This document shows positions 1,144-15,245 of a stretch of 15,509 nt of DNA, one piece after another; within the stretch, counting starts at the first letter, position 1, and each line of letters opens with the position of its first letter. Source of the stretch: an uncultured bacterium (lineage in GTDB: Bacteria > Verrucomicrobiota > Kiritimatiellia > RFP12 > UBA1067); contig CACZAK010000156.1 in assembly GCA_902779075.1 (NCBI GenBank), positions 1 through 15,509 on the forward strand, given 5' to 3'. The notes beneath the pieces are model-generated. The model was not told where the DNA came from, searched no databases, and saw nothing but the letters and a program-made list of their open reading frames with translations. Position numbers and translations under genes: made by a program.

Positions 1144-4100
1144 ATGAACATCTTGAAACTGCTTTTCGGTACCAAGAATGAGCGCGATCTCAAGCGGATT
1201 GCGCCCATCGTGGACCAGATTAAAAAGATTGAAGGCGAGTACGAGGCACAGCATTTCACGGCCGAGGACTACCCGAAGAAGACCGCGGAATTCAAGGAGC
1301 GCTTCGCCAAGGGCGAGACGCTCGACCAGTTGCTGCCGGAGGCTTTCGCTCTCGTCAAGAACGCCTGCCGCCGCCTCGTAGGCACGACCGAGGAGGTCTG
1401 CGGCCACACGCTCACGTGGGACATGGTCCCGTTCGACTGCCAGCTCGTGGGCGGCATCGTGCTGCATCAGGGCAAGATCGCCGAGATGCAGACGGGCGAG
1501 GGCAAGACGCTCGTCGCCACGCTGCCGCTCTACCTCAACGCGCTCGCCGGCAAGAACGTGCAGCTCGTCACGGTGAACGACTACCTCGCGCGCCGCGACG
1601 CCACGTGGATGGGCCACCTCCTCAAGTTCCTCGGCCTCACCGTGGGCTGCATCCAGAACTCGATGGACTCAGACGAGCGTCGCGCGCAGTACCAGTGCGA
1701 CGTCACGTACGGCACGAACAGCGAGTTCGGCTTTGACTACCTGCGCGATAACGGCATGGCGCAGGCCCCCGAGCAGGTGGTGCAGAACGGGCACCACTTC
1801 GCGATCGTGGACGAAGTGGACTCGATCCTCATCGACGAGGCCCGCACGCCGCTCATCATCTCCGGCCCCGCGACGATCTCCACGAGCGCGCAGTACACGG
1901 CGATGAAACCGCTTGTCGAATCAATCGTGCGCGTTCAGACGTCACAGTGCAACGACCTCATCGCGCAGGCGAAGAAGGCGCTCGCCGACGGCGACGAGTG
2001 GGGTTGCAAGAAGCGCATCTACCAGGTGTACCACTCGATGCCGAAGCACAAGCAGATGCTCCACATGTTCGAGGAGGCGTCCATCCGCAAGCTCCACGAG
2101 GACGTGGAGATGCAGATGCTCAGCGAAATGCACAAGGAGGAGGGCATCGCGCTCCGGGGCGAGCTCTACTTCACGATCGACGAGCGCACGCGCGAGGTGG
2201 CCCTCACGGACAAGGGCTGCGACAAGATGAACCCGAAGGATCCGCAGATGTTCGTGATCCCGGACCTCGCGAGCGAGATGAGCCGTCTCGACGGCGACAA
2301 GGAGATGTCCGCCGAGGAGAAGGCCGAGAAGAAGCGCATCGCGCAGGCGGACTTCATGGAGCGCTCCGCCCGCGTACACGTGGTGGACCAGCTCCTGCGC
2401 GCCTACTGCCTCTACGAAAAGGACGTCGACTACGTCGTGCAGCCGGACGCGCAGGGCGTCGGCCACGTCTACATCGTTGACGAGTTCACGGGCCGCATCC
2501 TGCCGGGCCGCCGCTGGTCGGACGGCCTCCACCAGGCCGTCGAGGCCAAGGAAGGCGTCGAGATCGAGCGCGAGAGCCAGACGCTCGCCACGATCACGAT
2601 CCAGAACTACTTCCGTCTCTACAAGAAGCTCGCGGGCATGACCGGCACGGCCGAGACCGAGGCGCGCGAGTTCAAGGACATCTACAAGCTCGACGTGGTG
2701 GTGATCCCCACGAACCGGCCGATCCGCCGCATCGACGGCAACGACCAGATTTACCGCACCCAGCGCGAGAAGTACAAGGCGATCATAGAGGAAGTGCGCA
2801 AGCGCCACGAGGCGGGCCAGCCGGTGCTGCTCGGCACGGTGACGGTCGATACGTCCGAAATCCTCTCGCGCCTCCTCAAGGTGGCGAAGATCCCGCACGA
2901 GGTGCTGAACGCGAAGAACCACGCGCGCGAGGCCGAGATCGTGATGCTCGCCGGCCAGCCCGGCGCGGTGACGATCGCCACGAACATGGCAGGCCGCGGC
3001 ACGGACATCAAGCTCGGCCCCGGCGTGGTGACGATCCCGCAGGAAGTCGTGAAGGGCCAGCTGAAGCTCGATGACAAGATGCCCGGTTCGCCGAAGACGA
3101 TCCGCGACCTCCTCGAAGAGCGTCCGCAGGGGCTGCACGTGATCGGATCCGAACGCCACGAGTCGCGTCGCATCGACCGCCAGCTGCGCGGACGCTGCTC
3201 GCGTCAGGGCGACCCCGGCAGCTCGCAGTTCTACATCTCGCTCGAAGACCCGCTCATGCGCCTCTTCGGTTCGCAGCGCATCAGCGGCATCATGCAGCGC
3301 CTCGGCATGAAGGAAGGCGAGGTGATGGAGCACCGCTGGCTGAACAAGAGCGTGGAGACTGCCCAGCGCCGCGTGGAACAGCAGCACTACGCGATCCGCA
3401 AGCGCACGCTCGAGTTCGACGACGTGATGAACAAGCAGCGCACGATCGTCTATGACCTGCGCGGCTCGATCCTCTCCGGGACGCCGGAGGACGTTCACGG
3501 CACGATCCTCGACGTGATGAACGACCTCGTGTTCGCGCAGTGCGAACGTTTCCTGTGCGAGGCGAAGGACGCGCAGGTGGGCGATTTTCTCCAGTGGCTC
3601 GGCGTGACGTTCCCCGTCACGGCCACGGAAGAGGAGCTCACGCCGCTCCTTGGCATGCCGGAGAAGTCGGCGGAACTCGTGTTCGGCCGCGTGAAGGAGG
3701 CTTATGAATCGAAGTGCGCGAGCGAAGACCCGCGCGTACTGCCGTCCATGGAGCGAGGGGTGTTCCTCCAGTGCATCGACCGCGAGTGGCAGGACTATCT
3801 GCGCGCGATGGACGACCTGCGCCACAGCGTGAACCTCCGCTCCTACGGCCAGCGCGACCCGCTGATCGAATACAAGCGCGAGGCGTTCGGCATGTTCGAA
3901 AACCTCATGATGACGATCAAGACGTCCGTTGCGAACACCGAGTTCCGCGCCACGACGGCGCAGAACATGCGCAGGATGCTCGCTGCCGCACAGCCGCGGG
4001 TGCGCACGAACGTCGAGGCGTTCGACGGCAACGGAGAAGAGGAGCGTCCTGCCGCTCCTCGTCCTGCCGCGCCGGCACAGCCGGCGCCTGAGAGCACGCA

Positions 4101-4281
4101 GGACGTCTTCGCGTCCATGATGAGCCAGGTTGCGGGACGCCCGGTGCGTGCAGTGCCGGCGCGCCGTCCGCCGCCGCCCGGCGCGCCCGCCGCAGGTGCC
4201 CCGGTAGTGGGCCGCAACGACCCCTGTCCGTGCGGGAGCGGAAAAAAATACAAAAAATGTTGCGGACGCGGTCAGTTCTGA
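1144..4281 (+). CDS. secA: Preprotein translocase ATPase SecA (enlarged, with SEC-C zinc motif)
   Basis: SecA is the ATP-driven motor that pushes unfolded preproteins through the SecYEG channel. This 1045-residue copy is complete. The N-terminal KLLFGTKNERDLKRI matches the family start, so ATG 1144 is the right start. Walker A is MQTGEGKT (115-122) and Walker B is DEVDSILIDEAR (223-233). A preprotein-crosslinking region runs from about 241 to 440, followed by VDEFTGRILPGRRW (about 444), GMTGTAE (about 497), TNMAGRGTDIKL (about 611) and GSERHESRRIDRQLRGRCSR (about 667). A helical wing/scaffold part and a Pro/Ala-rich linker (about 965-1020) precede the C-terminal zinc-binding NDPCPCGSGKKYKKCC. 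The length exceeds the roughly 900 residues of typical SecA, mainly from an insertion within the crosslinking region. Enlarged SecA proteins occur in Bacteroidetes and PVC bacteria. Expression seems to come from the extended -10 box directly upstream. Confidence 0.98.
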   Translation: MNILKLLFGTKNERDLKRIAPIVDQIKKIEGEYEAQHFTAEDYPKKTAEFKERFAKGETLDQLLPEAFALVKNACRRLVGTTEEVCGHTLTWDMVPFDCQLVGGIVLHQGKIAEMQTGEGKTLVATLPLYLNALAGKNVQLVTVNDYLARRDATWMGHLLKFLGLTVGCIQNSMDSDERRAQYQCDVTYGTNSEFGFDYLRDNGMAQAPEQVVQNGHHFAIVDEVDSILIDEARTPLIISGPATISTSAQYTAMKPLVESIVRVQTSQCNDLIAQAKKALADGDEWGCKKRIYQVYHSMPKHKQMLHMFEEASIRKLHEDVEMQMLSEMHKEEGIALRGELYFTIDERTREVALTDKGCDKMNPKDPQMFVIPDLASEMSRLDGDKEMSAEEKAEKKRIAQADFMERSARVHVVDQLLRAYCLYEKDVDYVVQPDAQGVGHVYIVDEFTGRILPGRRWSDGLHQAVEAKEGVEIERESQTLATITIQNYFRLYKKLAGMTGTAETEAREFKDIYKLDVVVIPTNRPIRRIDGNDQIYRTQREKYKAIIEEVRKRHEAGQPVLLGTVTVDTSEILSRLLKVAKIPHEVLNAKNHAREAEIVMLAGQPGAVTIATNMAGRGTDIKLGPGVVTIPQEVVKGQLKLDDKMPGSPKTIRDLLEERPQGLHVIGSERHESRRIDRQLRGRCSRQGDPGSSQFYISLEDPLMRLFGSQRISGIMQRLGMKEGEVMEHRWLNKSVETAQRRVEQQHYAIRKRTLEFDDVMNKQRTIVYDLRGSILSGTPEDVHGTILDVMNDLVFAQCERFLCEAKDAQVGDFLQWLGVTFPVTATEEELTPLLGMPEKSAELVFGRVKEAYESKCASEDPRVLPSMERGVFLQCIDREWQDYLRAMDDLRHSVNLRSYGQRDPLIEYKREAFGMFENLMMTIKTSVANTEFRATTAQNMRRMLAAAQPRVRTNVEAFDGNGEEERPAAPRPAAPAQPAPESTQDVFASMMSQVAGRPVRAVPARRPPPPGAPAAGAPVVGRNDPCPCGSGKKYKKCCGRGQF

Positions 4282-9749: not shown

Positions 9750-10124
9750 ATGAAGCGATTAAGGTTGCGAAAACTTGCTGTTGTATGCTTGCTGTCACAC
9801 TCTGCGCGACGGCGTTGGGCGAGTACAAAGATGCCGATAATCGGCTGGGGGTCGTGGGACGAGAAGGGCGCTTCGGCGGAGCGCTACGCGGAGGCGAGGG
9901 ATACGGGCTTCACGCACCTCACGCAGTGGTGTACGTCGTCGGCCGAGGCCAAGCGCCTCCTCGGCGAAGCCGAAAAGGCCGGAATCAAGCTGATCATCGG
10001 CCTGGGGCACGACGTCAAGCGCATGACGGACGCCGCGCTCGACATGATCCGCGCCGGCACCACGCGCATCGGTACCAGCGCCGGTGTATCCATCGTGGAA
10101 GAGCTAAAGGCACGAGAGAAATAG
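9750..10124 (+). pseudogene. Mosaic pseudogene: signal peptide, TIM-barrel fragment and DeoC tail
   Basis: Three pieces lie in a row. First, 9758-9829 matches the signal-peptide DNA of the EEP gene; its frame reads KVAKTCCCMLAVTLCATALGE. The codon aligning with the EEP ATG is ATT (9758), 9 bases after AAGGAG (9743-9748), so the start looks mutated. Second, after AAA at 9827-9829 the frame must shift: with one A fewer it continues as EYKMPIIGWGSWDE, then AERYAEARDTGFTHL and KAGIKLIIGLG, like the first strands of a secreted TIM-barrel glycosidase. Third, from about 10010, DAALDMIRAGTTRIGTSAGV matches the C-terminus of deoxyribose-phosphate aldolase, with the usual ASGG loop before it missing. 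The frame ends at TAG 10122-10124. ATG 9750 gives one open frame of 124 residues, but with a scrambled, non-signal N-terminus, so a functional protein is unlikely. Confidence 0.72.
9761..9808 (+). repeat. Duplicated signal-peptide DNA, copy of 8912-8959
   Basis: At a fixed offset of 849 bases, 43 of 48 positions are identical to 8912-8959, including a 32-base stretch with one mismatch (8924-8955 with 9773-9804). Similarity fades beyond the signal peptide, while the mature parts of the two genes are unrelated. This indicates copying or swapping of a leader segment rather than duplication of a whole gene. Confidence 0.85.
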
Positions 10125-10133
10125 GATTTAGTT

Positions 10134-10239
10134 GTAGGCGTCCCGCCGAGCCGTTACGTCGCCCCACCTCCGGGCCGCCCGGTGGTCGGCCCCTACCGGT
10201 TCGCATGGTAGGACGCGATCACCGAGCGCGCCGTTCCAT
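10134..10239. repeat. GC-rich intergenic repeat, copy 4 (degenerate)
   Basis: The core GGCGTCCCGCCGAGCCG (10137-10153) is identical to copy 2. The right arm reads TCGCCCCACC (10159-10168), then CCGGGCCGCCCGG (10170-10182) and a diverged GGTCGGCCCCTACC. A further GGTAGGACGCG with a GAGCGCGCC follows to about 10235. It fills most of the space between the pseudogene and the promoter of the giant secreted protein. Confidence 0.7.
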
Positions 10240-10246
10240 TTTCGGC

Positions 10247-10276
10247 TTGCGGGCGGCGGTGGGATTATGGTATCAT
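10247..10276 (+). promoter_or_regulatory. Probable promoter of the giant LamG protein
   Basis: TTGCGG (10247-10252) and TATCAT (10271-10276) are 18 bases apart. A TG extension gives TGGTATCAT, one base different from the secA box TGGTATAAT. It would leave a leader of about 50 bases with a good RBS (AAGAGG at 10321-10326, 8 bases before ATG 10335), unlike secA. Confidence 0.5.
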
Positions 10277-10334
10277 TATAGCCAATTCAACTGAACAGGA
10301 AGGTATCTTCAACAGTTACAAAGAGGAAAAAGCG

Positions 10335-13300
10335 ATGGAAAAACTTATCTGCAACTCCCGTAGGGGGGGGGCGAAAACTTCTAGTTTTGCTCGTGTTGTT
10401 GTTTTGGCTCTTGCGGGCGCGATGGGCGCGGTGACGGTATCGGCGTCAGACCTCGAATCCTACCGCTTCCGCTACGACTTCTCGTCGGGCGAGAAGGTGT
10501 TCTTCGGCAGCGCCGCTCAGCTCAGCGATCCGCTCGTCAGCGGCGGAACGCCCGTGTACACTCGCGTATATGGTCCGAACGGAGACAGTACGGCGGTTCA
10601 TCCATCGTCAGAGGACTGGGGTACGATCGGGACCGCCACGTTGAACGCCGACTGGACGCTCGCGATGTTTGCGCGCCCGGGTTCCGTCGAGGGACAGGTC
10701 ATCGTCGGCCTCGGGCGGCTGAACGGCGACAACAAAAAGTCGGTCGTGTTCTGCGCCTCTTCCGATCCGACCAAGTTCAAGGTCTATGTGGAGAAGCGTG
10801 TGCCGTCCAACAAGAAGTCGCACGAGACGACGCTCACGCTGGATGTCGGCAATACGACGGGTTTCCATTCGATCGTCGCCGTCCACCACGCTCCGCCGTC
10901 CGGCAACAAGGGAATGTTGCAGATCTACTGGGACGGCGTGCTGAAGGCCACTTACACCATGACGACCGATATACCGTTCGGCGACGTGATGCAGTTCTGC
11001 GCTTCGCCGTCATACTTTGTCTCACCCTGCGTCACCTCCACGGACAATCCCGACGTCGCGTTCCACGACGTGCGCTTCTTCTCGCGCGCGTTCACGGCGG
11101 CGGACGCGGCGGCGTACGCCGCGAAGTACCCGGCCGGCACGCTCCGCCAGAGCGCGTACGTCCAGTCAGCCAGCAAGAACGCCGTCGATACGGGCTATCT
11201 CACGAATCCGGGCACGCGCTACACGGCGGACTTCCAGTTTCTCGACAACACGAAGCAGGCCCGCATCTTTGGCGCGTATGGCGCCGCGGGATGCAACCTC
11301 TACGTCAACAGCAGCACCAAGTTCGGCTACGCGATGCGCGACGGCGGAGCGGGGTGGTCGGACTTTGGCGTGGGCGTGGACTACCGCCGCCGCGTCGTGA
11401 CGGAGGACGCGTTCGCGAACAGCGCAACGCTCCGTCTTGTCCAGACGCCCGGCGGCGTCGTGACGAAGTCGCTCGGCGGAACGCACACGAACACGGCCAC
11501 GATCTTTACGACGCTCTATGCGGAACGCCAAGAGGTGGACGGCGAATACATGAATCCATCCACATCTCGCATCTATTCGTTCGCGATCGACGAGACGACG
11601 GTGGTGGACGGCGAGAACGTCGTCACGCCTGTACATTTCTTCGTGCCGTACAATGACGCGACCCTTGGCGCGGGCTTCACGAACATCGTCGCCGGCACGT
11701 TCCACGGCGAGGCGAACGGCAGCGTCACCCCCGCCCTTGCGTACTGCGGCGGTGTCGGCGGCGTGGAAGACTACAAGTACGAGGACGGCGTCCTTTCGGC
11801 GAAGATATACGTCGCGTCCGCCAATCCGTCGAAAGGCCTTGTGCTGGTGGGCGAGGATGCGGCGACGGACGCCGCGTCGTTCTGGCTGGACCACGAGGCG
11901 ACGGTCACGCTCACGGCCGTCCCGCAGGGCGGCGCGGAGTTCCTCGGATGGTTCGGCGATCTCGGCACGATTCAGGTTGGCGGCACGGCGACGAACCTCA
12001 CAATCACGGTCAAGAGCGCGTCCGCCGCGCAGTTCGAGGCGCGTTTCGGCGCGGGCGCGTGGTCGGAACGCTACGACAGCTCGATGCCGCGTTTCGCGAA
12101 GAGGGCGCAGGACTTCGACGTGGGCGACTACGTGCAGAGTGGGCTCATCCTCCACTTCGACGGCATCCGCAACGCGGGCGCGTCCGCGCCGCACGATCCC
12201 GCCGCGACAACGTGGGTGAACCTCGGCACGCTCGGCGCCGCGCAGAACGCCGCGAAGACCACGCTTGCGTCGAGCGTTCCGTCCGGCGCGGCGGCAGGCG
12301 AATGGGCCGATGACGGCTATGCGTTCAAGGGCAAGGAATATTTCGCGCTCGGCGGTACGGTCTCGCTTGGAAGCGAGTTGACCACACAGGTCTCGGCGGA
12401 CTACGACGAATCGGCGCAAGTTGCCAATTATCCCGCTCTCTTCGGCGCAACCGCGAGTTCGTCGCGCGACGACTACTTCTTTTACTTCAACCGCGTCAAT
12501 AATGCAGGGGCGGTTCCTGTGTTCAAACTAAACCATGCGACGGCGCGCAACATGGGGCGCCGATATACGGGGGCGCACCTGACCGCGATCTACGACGCGC
12601 CCAACTCGCGCGTGAGCATCGAGGACGCCGTCCTGCCGTCCTGGCAGGCGGCCAGCACGACGGCCGCGCTCGGGGACTGGCCCTACGCCATCGGCACGGG
12701 GCGCGCAACAGACGCCCAGATGGGCGCTCGCATGTACCTCGGAAAGATCCGTTCCGTGCGCGTGTACAACCGGGTGCTCGACGCGGCGGAACTCACGGTC
12801 AACAGGATCGTCGATGACGCGCGCTTCTTCGGCACGGTCGAGGCGAACGTTGTCGTGGCTTCGAACGGCGCGGGGCTTTCGGGAACGGAGCCCGAAGGCG
12901 ACTACATGGTGAACGGCAGCCACACGTTCACGGCCCCCGCGAGCGTGGTGAAGGCGGACGGCACGACGTGGACGCCGACAGGCTACAGGATCGAGATACG
13001 GGATGCCAACGGCGTTTGGACGCTTCTCGAGGAGTCGTCCGCGACGGAATACGCCTACACGAACTGCGAGGCGCGTGCGCAGGTGCGCCTCACGTGGAAC
13101 TGGAAGCTTGCGGACGGCGTGAAGAAGCTTGACGCCGACGACTACGCGCAGGCCGGGCTTCTCCTCAACTTCGACGGCATCCGCAACGCCGGCCTCGCGG
13201 CGGAGCACGACGCGGAGGCGGAGACGTGGGCGAACCTCGGTTCGCTCGGCAGCGCGGTCGACGCCACGAACGCCGTCATCTCCTCGGAATACTGGCAGGC

Positions 13301-15245
13301 CGACTCCGCGTTTGGCAACTGGACGGACAAGGGCTACGTGTTCAAGTGCCGCAACTACTTCGCGCTGAAGGACAAGGTCGCGCTCGGCAGTGAGGCAACG
13401 ACGCAGGTCGTCGTTGACTACGACACCGTCGGGACAAAGCACTACAACACCGACCCGCACAAGGTCAGATGGCCGTGCATCTTCGGAGCGACGGACATTT
13501 CCAACCACTTCATCCTCTACATGAACATCGACAACAACGTGGACATGAAAACCTATACGTACGTTTTGGGCAACGCGACCTATCGCAACGAAGTTGACCG
13601 GTGGGATGGACGCTACGTCAACCGCATCATCGAGTCGCGTTCCGCAAAGACGGACACAATGAAGGTTTCGGCGGGCGCTTCGTGGAACAGCGGAAGCAAG
13701 GCGATTCCGTTCGGCATGGAGGTCGGCAGCCATTCCCTCGCCATCGGTACGGGAACCAGCACCGCGTCGGGATGGGCCGAGCACATCTACGCCGGCACGG
13801 TGTTCGCCCTGCGCCAGTACGACCGCGTGCTCACGGAGGCGGAACTCCAGCGCAACAAGGCGATCGACGAGGCCCGGTTCTTCGGGCGGATCGGCGGGCT
13901 TGACGAAACGGACGTCGTGCTCGTCAAGAGCGAGTCTCCGGGCGACGCCGTGACGGTCGCGGACGAAGGCGCGTACATCATCCGCGGCACCGGCACGAAG
14001 ACGTTCACCGCGCCGGAGACGTTCACGTGCGAGAAGGGCGAATACGCCTGCGCCGGATACCGCGTCGAGACGTGGGACGCGGCGGCGCGCGTGTGGAACG
14101 TCGATGAGACTTCCGCCGCCCGCACGAAGACGTTCTCCGGCACGTCGGGCGCGGCGAACCGCCGTCTTGTCTGGCTCTGGACGCTGACGCAGGGCATCCG
14201 CTCCGCCGCCGACTACACCACCGCCGACTACGTGCAGGCGGGCCTCGCCTCGAACTTCGACGGAATCAACAACTACGGTGCGACCCGTTCGCACTACAAT
14301 TCCGCCGGCATCTGGCTGAACCTCGCCGACGGCGGGCCGGACGCGACGCTCGTCGCCACGGCGCTGAGCGATCCCTCAAAGTCCGCAGTGGCCGGCTCGT
14401 GGGCTGCGGACGGATACACGTTCGGCGGCAAGAATCACTTCGCGCTGAAGGAAAACGTCGCCTTCGGCCAGCAGCTGTCCGCGCAGTTCATCCTTGCATA
14501 CGACCACGACAGCAACATCGGCTCCTATCCCAACATCTTCGGGACGACCGCGAACACCGGCAGGGACGACCTCATCGTGTACTTCGACAGGTCTTCGGGC
14601 AACGTGAACAACGGCCTTAAGATGCGCCCGAACTTCAAGCTGCAAAACGTGACGCGGCACACGATGGCAACGGACTGGACGGGGCCGTACCTCAACGTGT
14701 TCTACGATGACCTCGAAAGGAAGAAGGCCAGCATCAGCAACGCGGAATTGCCCGCCTGGATCAAGTCCAATGCATCGGGTACGCTGCCGTCGTGGCCCTA
14801 CACCATCGGCACGGGGCGCAACGCCACCCAGCAGACGCGCATGTTCATTGGTAAGATATCGTCCGTCAGGCTCTACAACCGCATCCTCACGGACGACGAG
14901 CTGCACCAGAACCGCAAGGTTGACGAGATCCGCTTCAACAACGGATTTGCGAACTACGCGAATCTCGTCGTCGCCTACGGCGCGAACGACGACGACATCG
15001 CGGCGACGGCGGCGCTTCCGGCGGGCGAGTACGAGGTGACCGGCAGCTGGACGCTCACGGCGGAGGAGGCCGTTGCGGACGGCCATAGGTACGTTCCGTT
15101 CGTGCAGGTCGAGACATGGAATAACGGCGGCTGGACCGCCGCCGGAAGGGCGCCTGGCGCCTCCTACACGGCGACCGATTCCGCAAAGGTTCGCCTCACG
15201 TACAACTGGCGGCGCAAGCGCGGCCTCACCATCATCGTGCGGTAG
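10335..15245 (+). CDS. Giant secreted LamG-module protein, probably surface-exposed
   Basis: 1636 residues. A long signal peptide has a basic n-region (1-20), core VVVLALAGAMGAV and a cleavage site near SAS (about 38). Modules follow in order: a LamG/concanavalin-like domain (about 39-265, with LQIYWDGVLKATY and AFHDVRFFSRAFTAADAAAY); a second beta domain (about 268-474, starting AYVQSASKNAVDTGY); and an InlB B-repeat-like or Flg_new_2-like segment (about 479-575, with FLGWFGD). Then come three LamG-like repeats at about 593-833, 931-1185 and 1291-1537. Each starts DYVQxGLxxxFDGIxNxG, carries NYFAL/HFAL, ends in IGTG then VRxYNRxL, and is followed by a beta linker ending RLTWNW. LamG domains bind glycans or proteins, so adhesion or carbohydrate binding is the likely role, without a catalytic domain. 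The last linker ends in RRKRGLTIIVR with no anchor or autotransporter domain. A run of nine G sits in codons 10-13. Confidence 0.9.
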   Translation: MEKLICNSRRGGAKTSSFARVVVLALAGAMGAVTVSASDLESYRFRYDFSSGEKVFFGSAAQLSDPLVSGGTPVYTRVYGPNGDSTAVHPSSEDWGTIGTATLNADWTLAMFARPGSVEGQVIVGLGRLNGDNKKSVVFCASSDPTKFKVYVEKRVPSNKKSHETTLTLDVGNTTGFHSIVAVHHAPPSGNKGMLQIYWDGVLKATYTMTTDIPFGDVMQFCASPSYFVSPCVTSTDNPDVAFHDVRFFSRAFTAADAAAYAAKYPAGTLRQSAYVQSASKNAVDTGYLTNPGTRYTADFQFLDNTKQARIFGAYGAAGCNLYVNSSTKFGYAMRDGGAGWSDFGVGVDYRRRVVTEDAFANSATLRLVQTPGGVVTKSLGGTHTNTATIFTTLYAERQEVDGEYMNPSTSRIYSFAIDETTVVDGENVVTPVHFFVPYNDATLGAGFTNIVAGTFHGEANGSVTPALAYCGGVGGVEDYKYEDGVLSAKIYVASANPSKGLVLVGEDAATDAASFWLDHEATVTLTAVPQGGAEFLGWFGDLGTIQVGGTATNLTITVKSASAAQFEARFGAGAWSERYDSSMPRFAKRAQDFDVGDYVQSGLILHFDGIRNAGASAPHDPAATTWVNLGTLGAAQNAAKTTLASSVPSGAAAGEWADDGYAFKGKEYFALGGTVSLGSELTTQVSADYDESAQVANYPALFGATASSSRDDYFFYFNRVNNAGAVPVFKLNHATARNMGRRYTGAHLTAIYDAPNSRVSIEDAVLPSWQAASTTAALGDWPYAIGTGRATDAQMGARMYLGKIRSVRVYNRVLDAAELTVNRIVDDARFFGTVEANVVVASNGAGLSGTEPEGDYMVNGSHTFTAPASVVKADGTTWTPTGYRIEIRDANGVWTLLEESSATEYAYTNCEARAQVRLTWNWKLADGVKKLDADDYAQAGLLLNFDGIRNAGLAAEHDAEAETWANLGSLGSAVDATNAVISSEYWQADSAFGNWTDKGYVFKCRNYFALKDKVALGSEATTQVVVDYDTVGTKHYNTDPHKVRWPCIFGATDISNHFILYMNIDNNVDMKTYTYVLGNATYRNEVDRWDGRYVNRIIESRSAKTDTMKVSAGASWNSGSKAIPFGMEVGSHSLAIGTGTSTASGWAEHIYAGTVFALRQYDRVLTEAELQRNKAIDEARFFGRIGGLDETDVVLVKSESPGDAVTVADEGAYIIRGTGTKTFTAPETFTCEKGEYACAGYRVETWDAAARVWNVDETSAARTKTFSGTSGAANRRLVWLWTLTQGIRSAADYTTADYVQAGLASNFDGINNYGATRSHYNSAGIWLNLADGGPDATLVATALSDPSKSAVAGSWAADGYTFGGKNHFALKENVAFGQQLSAQFILAYDHDSNIGSYPNIFGTTANTGRDDLIVYFDRSSGNVNNGLKMRPNFKLQNVTRHTMATDWTGPYLNVFYDDLERKKASISNAELPAWIKSNASGTLPSWPYTIGTGRNATQQTRMFIGKISSVRLYNRILTDDELHQNRKVDEIRFNNGFANYANLVVAYGANDDDIAATAALPAGEYEVTGSWTLTAEEAVADGHRYVPFVQVETWNNGGWTAAGRAPGASYTATDSAKVRLTYNWRRKRGLTIIVR
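10363..10371 (+). repeat. Poly-G(9) tract in the 5' coding region, possible phase-variation switch
   Basis: CCGTA is followed by nine G, then CGAAA. The run covers codons 10-13 (Arg-Gly-Gly-Ala), before the signal-peptide core. In the present length the frame is open for 1636 codons. With one extra G the frame reaches TAG at 10382-10384. With one G fewer it reaches TGA at 10432-10434. No start codon downstream could restore a full signal peptide. The current state is therefore ON and either single-base slip is OFF. Confidence 0.7.

Follow-up and report, generated by a model that had tools for sequence, protein, structure and literature searches.

A poly-G tract within a dispersed promoter and signal-peptide leader is a candidate slipped-strand switch for large secreted proteins of rumen Kiritimatiellae

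The stretch of DNA analyzed here (the window) comprises 15,509 nt from an uncultured bacterium of the Kiritimatiellia, a class of the PVC group. At 10335..15245 on its plus strand lies an ORF for a predicted secreted protein of 1636 aa with a LamG-like domain, recognized from the reading frame itself and from a Pfam match (Laminin_G_3, PF13385; E=1.2e-13, best stretch residues 94-257). When Pfam was searched at E 0.1, the only other hit to this protein was a sub-threshold one to Flg_new_2, and NCBIfam held no family for it. The ORF opens with a coding leader (10335..10445, plus strand) for MEKLICNSRRGGAKTSSFARVVVLALAGAMGAVTVSA, which is predicted to be the signal peptide of the protein; its extent follows from the leader copies described below, and the cleavage site is our own reading of the sequence. 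Just upstream of the leader, at 9750-10124, is a 124-aa ORF that had no Pfam match and is possibly a gene remnant; we take its C-terminus to resemble deoxyribose-phosphate aldolase. Elsewhere in the window, 1144-4281 encodes SecA, as identified by SecA Pfam domains. The DEAD-like match of this SecA covers residues 6-511 against a profile of 290 positions, and is long because the preprotein-binding domain, and perhaps an insertion, sit inside it.

A single run of nine G residues (G9) occurs in the window, at 10363..10371 on the plus strand, where it spans codons 10-13 of the large ORF (AGG GGG GGG GCG), just as the original prediction had placed it. Since its sister copies carry G9, G10, or interrupted or shortened runs, the tract is a candidate slipped-strand switch. 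The stop codons given in that prediction were also right: as read from the sequence, gain of one G brings TAG at 10382..10384 into frame and loss of one G brings TGA at 10432..10434 into frame (both plus strand), so that translation is predicted to stop after codon 16 with G10 and after codon 32 with G8. A single slip had been claimed to abolish the protein, and the three G10 relatives do indeed stop after codon 16. Slips of three G, a point absent from the prediction, preserve the frame. In both shifted frames, the open sequence that precedes the tract was found to contain no ATG, GTG, or TTG codon. With nine G in frame, the tract reaches the contingency-locus threshold of G >=9 given in PMC5953494. 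No other run of G or C longer than five is present in the window, and one G9 there is only mildly unexpected by chance, as 9 of 200 dinucleotide shuffles contained at least one. Codon habit was considered as the source of the run and ruled out, since GGG and AGG are minority codons in this ORF: from codon 21 to the ORF end, GGG accounts for 18 of 155 codons for Gly and AGG for 9 of 79 for Arg.

The original prediction regarded a large LamG-type surface protein as a plausible target of switching. Our results place the tract instead in a dispersed leader module. When DNA from 10200-10600 was compared with G001, the nearest genome compared (sharing 53% of the window's sampled words), 57 places matched, some over a short dispersed repeat only and others over a conserved leader unit. 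One copy of the repeat, GGTAGGRCGCGATCACCGAGCGCGCC, occupies exactly 10207..10232 (plus strand), just upstream of the cassette and outside its conserved part, and related copies occur many times in G001, G012, and G022. The leader unit starts at ATTTTCGGCTTGCGG (10238) and passes through a promoter-like stretch, a 5'UTR, a ribosome-binding site, and the ATG to the hydrophobic part of the signal peptide, where it ends. Alignment of the copies revealed an upstream block (10238..10334, plus strand) that is conserved in most of them and, judging from conservation and position, we infer that it holds the promoter. On the same grounds, promoter-like TTGCGG (10247-10252) and TATCAT (10271-10276), 18 nt apart and followed by the 5'UTR, were assigned on the plus strand; a GAGG ribosome-binding site (10323-10326, plus strand) also lies within the block. 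A scan of 10238-10334 for a consensus sigma-70 promoter returned none at its threshold.

At least 36 copies of the leader (34 tabulated and two more) were counted in the window, G001, G012, G022, and G013. This number is a lower bound, since a distant leader (G001:C102:5840, MKNITCNSTQWAKSC) falls outside the 34-copy table; one of the 36 copies, G012:C148:1256, belongs to this distant, MKNITCNSTQWAKSC-like type. Leader DNA was matched in 4 of the 114 genomes of the family, and the copies beyond the window come from four genomes of a single genus. In a protein database, the leader was present in 18 of 22 hits to residues 1-60, and some protein relatives of the sister genes bear the source name Kiritimatiellae bacterium. 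A phage-borne leader was also considered and rejected, as an exact 20-base pattern gave no matches in viral_contigs. The bodies behind the leader include LamG (PF13385), PF12951, beta-helix (PF18889), and C10 peptidase (PF01640) proteins, and three of five scanned bodies were without a Pfam family. Since the leader precedes so many different bodies, we rejected the notion of a LamG-specific feature. As expected of a shared, exchangeable module, bodies lacking homology to one another were found behind near-identical leader DNA, and homologous bodies behind different leaders.

Among 27 copies of the NSRRGG type, to which the window's leader belongs, 19 had G9, three had G10, four were interrupted (GGGGAGGGA, GGGGAGGGG twice, and GGGGGAGGG), one was shorter by 3 nt, and none had G8; these lengths derive from the assembly consensus of paralogues and species, where G9 versus G10 in an assembled repeat can be an error. 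To be testable for frame, a G9 copy needed its ATG and at least 100 codons of contig. Six copies fell short of this: C109:15539, C161:92, and C189:10404 leave the contig within 30 codons, C260 and the copy at the start of C109 begin past the ATG, and C141:39933 lacks both ATG and 5'UTR. Each of the 13 testable G9 copies continues in frame from its ATG, in 12 cases for 453 codons or more. In the remaining one (G001:C255), which has 120 codons open, a second frameshift near codon 100 and away from the tract appears to break the gene, indicating that disruption not involving the tract occurs too. The G10 copies (G001:C288, G022:C111, and G012:C9), one per species in three species, all stop after codon 16, in agreement with the TAG read from the window. 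Behind their tracts the frame remains open, for 992 and 998 codons in two cases where it runs to the contig end and for 1569 codons in the third. OFF states therefore account for only 3 of the 22 pure tracts, all by +1. When the 66-nt coding leader was compared among the 24 RRGG-type copies holding an ATG (gaps at cut segment ends ignored), all four length changes, three of +1 and one of -3, were at the tract. Related copies thus differ in tract length while the remainder of the gene stays open, these differences being among paralogues and species rather than strains. Special conservation of the tract relative to its flanks was not supported: codon 11 was GGG in 15 of 18 equal-length copies and GGA in three, neighboring codons were equally conserved, and conservation is high across the whole coding leader.

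The gene that is OFF in G012:C9 encodes a predicted C10 peptidase. Its closest relatives, P0023 (97%) and P0024 (90%), have an unrelated leader, and its ON form is consequently known only from the 78% identical P0025, which has the same leader in frame. ATG, GTG, and TTG codons occur internally past the tract of G012:C9 and could give leaky expression when the gene is OFF. Another protein, P0026, begins MAGLVAGAAS. It could represent an OFF allele for which an internal codon was taken as the start or, equally, something else; the protein search is blind to tract length.

Orthologues of the window gene differ from it in this region. Contig C85 of G001 matches the window at 97.4% identity over 7.7 kb and at 94.1% over 5.8 kb, and the nearest orthologue, which it carries (94% over 1636 aa), has the interrupted tract GGGGAGGGA in the same frame. 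The original prediction had called for a comparison of orthologues and named interrupted Gly codons in them as one half of what would speak against it, the other half being reads of invariant length; the interruption in G001:C85 supplies the former. In the G012 orthologue (G012:C78), DNA homology to the window starts no earlier than 10442, close to the presumed cleavage site; the unrelated leader of this orthologue represents a second type shared with P0017 and P0022, and P0018 and P0019 carry a third. Retention of the tract among orthologues, a supporting rather than a defining feature of contingency loci, was thus seen in none of G001:C85, G012:C78, P0017, P0018, P0019, and P0022. Given the interrupted tract of its nearest orthologue, the window gene itself is perhaps not stably maintained as a contingency locus in its lineage. 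The G012:C78 leader was considered as another multi-copy cassette and rejected, as its listed matches beyond its own locus and G022:C136 were to a short internal dispersed repeat. Its alternative signal peptide (L114 6544-6633) contains a reverse-strand copy of the dispersed repeat GGTAGGGCGCGATCACCGAGCGCGCC, which suggests that a repeat of intergenic origin now encodes part of a signal peptide here.

We also compared the identity of leader and body in orthologue-like pairs. Eight of nine pairs gave both values, with the leader lower in four and higher in four. For example, G001:C161:7599 and G012:C23 have bodies that are 96% identical (900 nt) and leaders that are 81% identical, one having G9 and the other the non-slippery GGGGAAAGG, whereas G012:C117 and G022:C112 have a leader identity of 96.6% and a body identity of 81.5%, and G001:C189:3076 and G012:C148 have values of 87% and 66%, respectively. 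Since leader and body identities are uncoupled, switchability belongs to the leader and is gained or lost as leaders change.

Long G runs are not confined to the leader. G001 (6.1 Mb) has 59 runs of G9 or longer, 14 of them in the leader, G012 and G022 have 23 each, and at least one was present in 40 of 40 relatives searched. Expected numbers for G001 were 2.6-8.4 under Markov orders 2-5, 28.9 (about half of the 59 observed) under order 1, and 152 (exceeding those observed) under order 0, the models having been trained on 54 loci that were mostly fetched for their tracts, with runs >=7 removed. The pattern TTGAC-N(2-12)-G8-N(0-6)-TAnnnT gave 74 raw matches, several sites being counted twice, in 29 of 110 family genomes, as compared to four for the reversed pattern. 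G009 was richest, with 17 raw matches, and some of the 12 loci inspected precede housekeeping-like genes (e.g., L180). Four similar TTGACAAAAC...TAAAAT sites in G001 (C14:42625, C80:16486, C116:9195, and C160:5715) have runs of G8, G9, G10, and G10 and spacers of 16, 17, 18, and 19, and the three of these sites that were inspected lie before ORFs of 972, 864, and 989 aa, the starts of which are signal-like. Poly-G in promoter-like spacers, differing in length at sister sites before large ORFs, is a candidate second class of phase variation. Homopolymers in promoter spacers underlie phase variation of porA and opc in Neisseria, and the runs of G8 or more between TTGAC and TAnnnT are like these; the tract of the window, in contrast, lies in a coding leader.

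Considering these results, we think it probable, if well short of certain, that the nine G residues form a slipped-strand contingency tract in a modular promoter/5'UTR/signal-peptide leader, which this genus of rumen Kiritimatiellae reuses before many large, often unrelated secreted proteins. The phase-variation reading of the original prediction is strengthened by sister copies whose lengths differ with the predicted effect on frame (G9 in 19 and G10 in three of 27) and by a lineage rich in poly-G, some of it in promoter-like spacers, and is weakened by the interruption in the nearest orthologue. With G9, and by arithmetic with G6 or G12, the start codon would be in frame, allowing synthesis and export of the protein; translation would end after 16 codons with G10 or 32 codons with G8, and the protein would be OFF. 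Slippage would be reversible in living populations, and recombination or gene conversion would carry the leader from gene to gene, so that a gene may acquire a switchable leader, a point-mutated, locked one (as in the four interrupted copies), or an unrelated one. Possible benefits are bet-hedging of costly surface or digestive proteins, or avoidance of phage or immunity. A broader reading, which we offer tentatively and which falls a little short of an even chance, is that rumen Kiritimatiellae possess a portable ON/OFF cassette of promoter and signal peptide: the G9 leader would be pasted by recombination before unrelated giant secreted proteins (LamG, beta-strand-repeat, and C10 peptidases), phase variability itself would be movable, each cell would show a random subset of the large exported proteins, and the promoter-spacer class would make this a genome-wide contingency system.

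Unlike decaying genes, the three G10 copies encounter no further stop in the 992, 998, and 1569 codons behind their tracts. This argues against the strongest alternative, in which the leader would be a cassette spread only recently, by dispersal or gene conversion, the G run a passenger coding for an Arg-Gly-Gly-Ala stretch of the signal peptide, and the G10 copies ordinary frameshifted pseudogenes in the course of being lost. Such a cassette would account for flanking codons as conserved as the tract, for locked versions in orthologues, and for the copy in C255 that appears broken elsewhere; it sits poorly with all four changes in coding-leader length falling in the tract and with poly-G in promoter-like spacers of the same species, where an explanation based on amino acids cannot apply, and we consider it unlikely. 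Less probable still is that true length is G9 everywhere and that the tenth G is an artifact of sequencing or assembling, from metagenomes, a leader that is repeated and contains a homopolymer. Contigs of G001 ending in or beside the leader (C109 at both ends, C189, C161, C260, C261, and C288) indicate that the assembler struggled there, but three species, each assembled separately, have one G10 copy apiece, the bases flanking these copies differ, and 19 copies are pure G9 tracts regardless. Finally, homopolymers of such length can slip in transcription, and OFF copies do retain long open frames, but action at the RNA level (transcription slippage, or ribosome pausing or frameshifting for export timing), which would partly rescue the loss of frame in DNA and leave no clean ON/OFF state, is very improbable, as locked, interrupted, or non-slippery versions of the leader serve orthologous genes and the run is thus probably not needed for export.

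The slipped-strand switch that we favor has two counterparts in Neisseria, in one of which, pilC, the tract lies in the signal-peptide region. According to PMC5953494, the PilC gene contains a tract of 9-20 G, the modal length of poly-G in meningococcus and gonococcus is nine, the cut-off is also nine, and non-switching alleles of both opa and pilC occur. Like PilC, as described there, the tract studied here is a poly-G/C tract within the reading frame; however, there are two pilC genes, as opposed to a leader common to many genes, and homology to PilC was judged by Pfam only. In the Opa system, about 11 opa genes each have CTCTT repeats within their leader and are switched by translation frame (PMC3745409). 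The two systems are alike in having many genes with the same repeat inside the region coding for the leader peptide, but the repeat unit here is a single G rather than CTCTT, and the leader moves independently of the body, with various large secreted proteins rather than one family behind it. Pfam gave no match to Opa and the repeat is G9, making the relationship one of analogy only. In our best reading, the switch resembles Opa and PilC in logic rather than ancestry and is assigned to neither. For Akkermansia muciniphila, a gut bacterium of the PVC group, a 2011 report proposed that mononucleotide repeats cause phase variation, with 17 genes having tracts >8 bp, two of them in capsule synthesis, and no shared leader module is described for it in the accessible part of that report (PMC3048395). 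The original prediction knew of no such report for this kind of bacterium, which stands for the Kiritimatiellia, as a search of open-licence papers for "Kiritimatiell" with "phase variation" or "phase-variable" found none, but must be qualified by the G-tract proposal for Akkermansia.

Most known cases of phase variation by homopolymer slippage come from host-adapted pathogens. If our reading is true, a leader that bears the switch and passes from gene to gene would reveal the way in which switchability itself is spread. Large secreted proteins in single-consensus assemblies of rumen metagenomes could then be wrongly annotated as broken or truncated. The copies have now been tabulated with their tract positions and expected lengths, which allows switching to be examined directly in existing read sets from the rumen.

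Poly-G was also observed in other settings in G001. At seven loci (L063, L066, L071, L080, L086, L095, and L106), a dispersed element with the flank CCAGCGCCGTCAGGCAGTGA (and variants) is followed by G10-G17, the length of which differs from copy to copy with no obvious reading frame. A third kind of tract lies within long genes. In C30 (L067 889 and 2036), a leucine-rich-repeat ORF, presumably BspA-like, has a G11 out of frame and a G10 in frame, both in repeat codons. In C11 (L061 3051, minus strand), a mid-gene G10 is preceded by ~555 codons and followed by 681 codons in different frames, making this gene a further OFF candidate.
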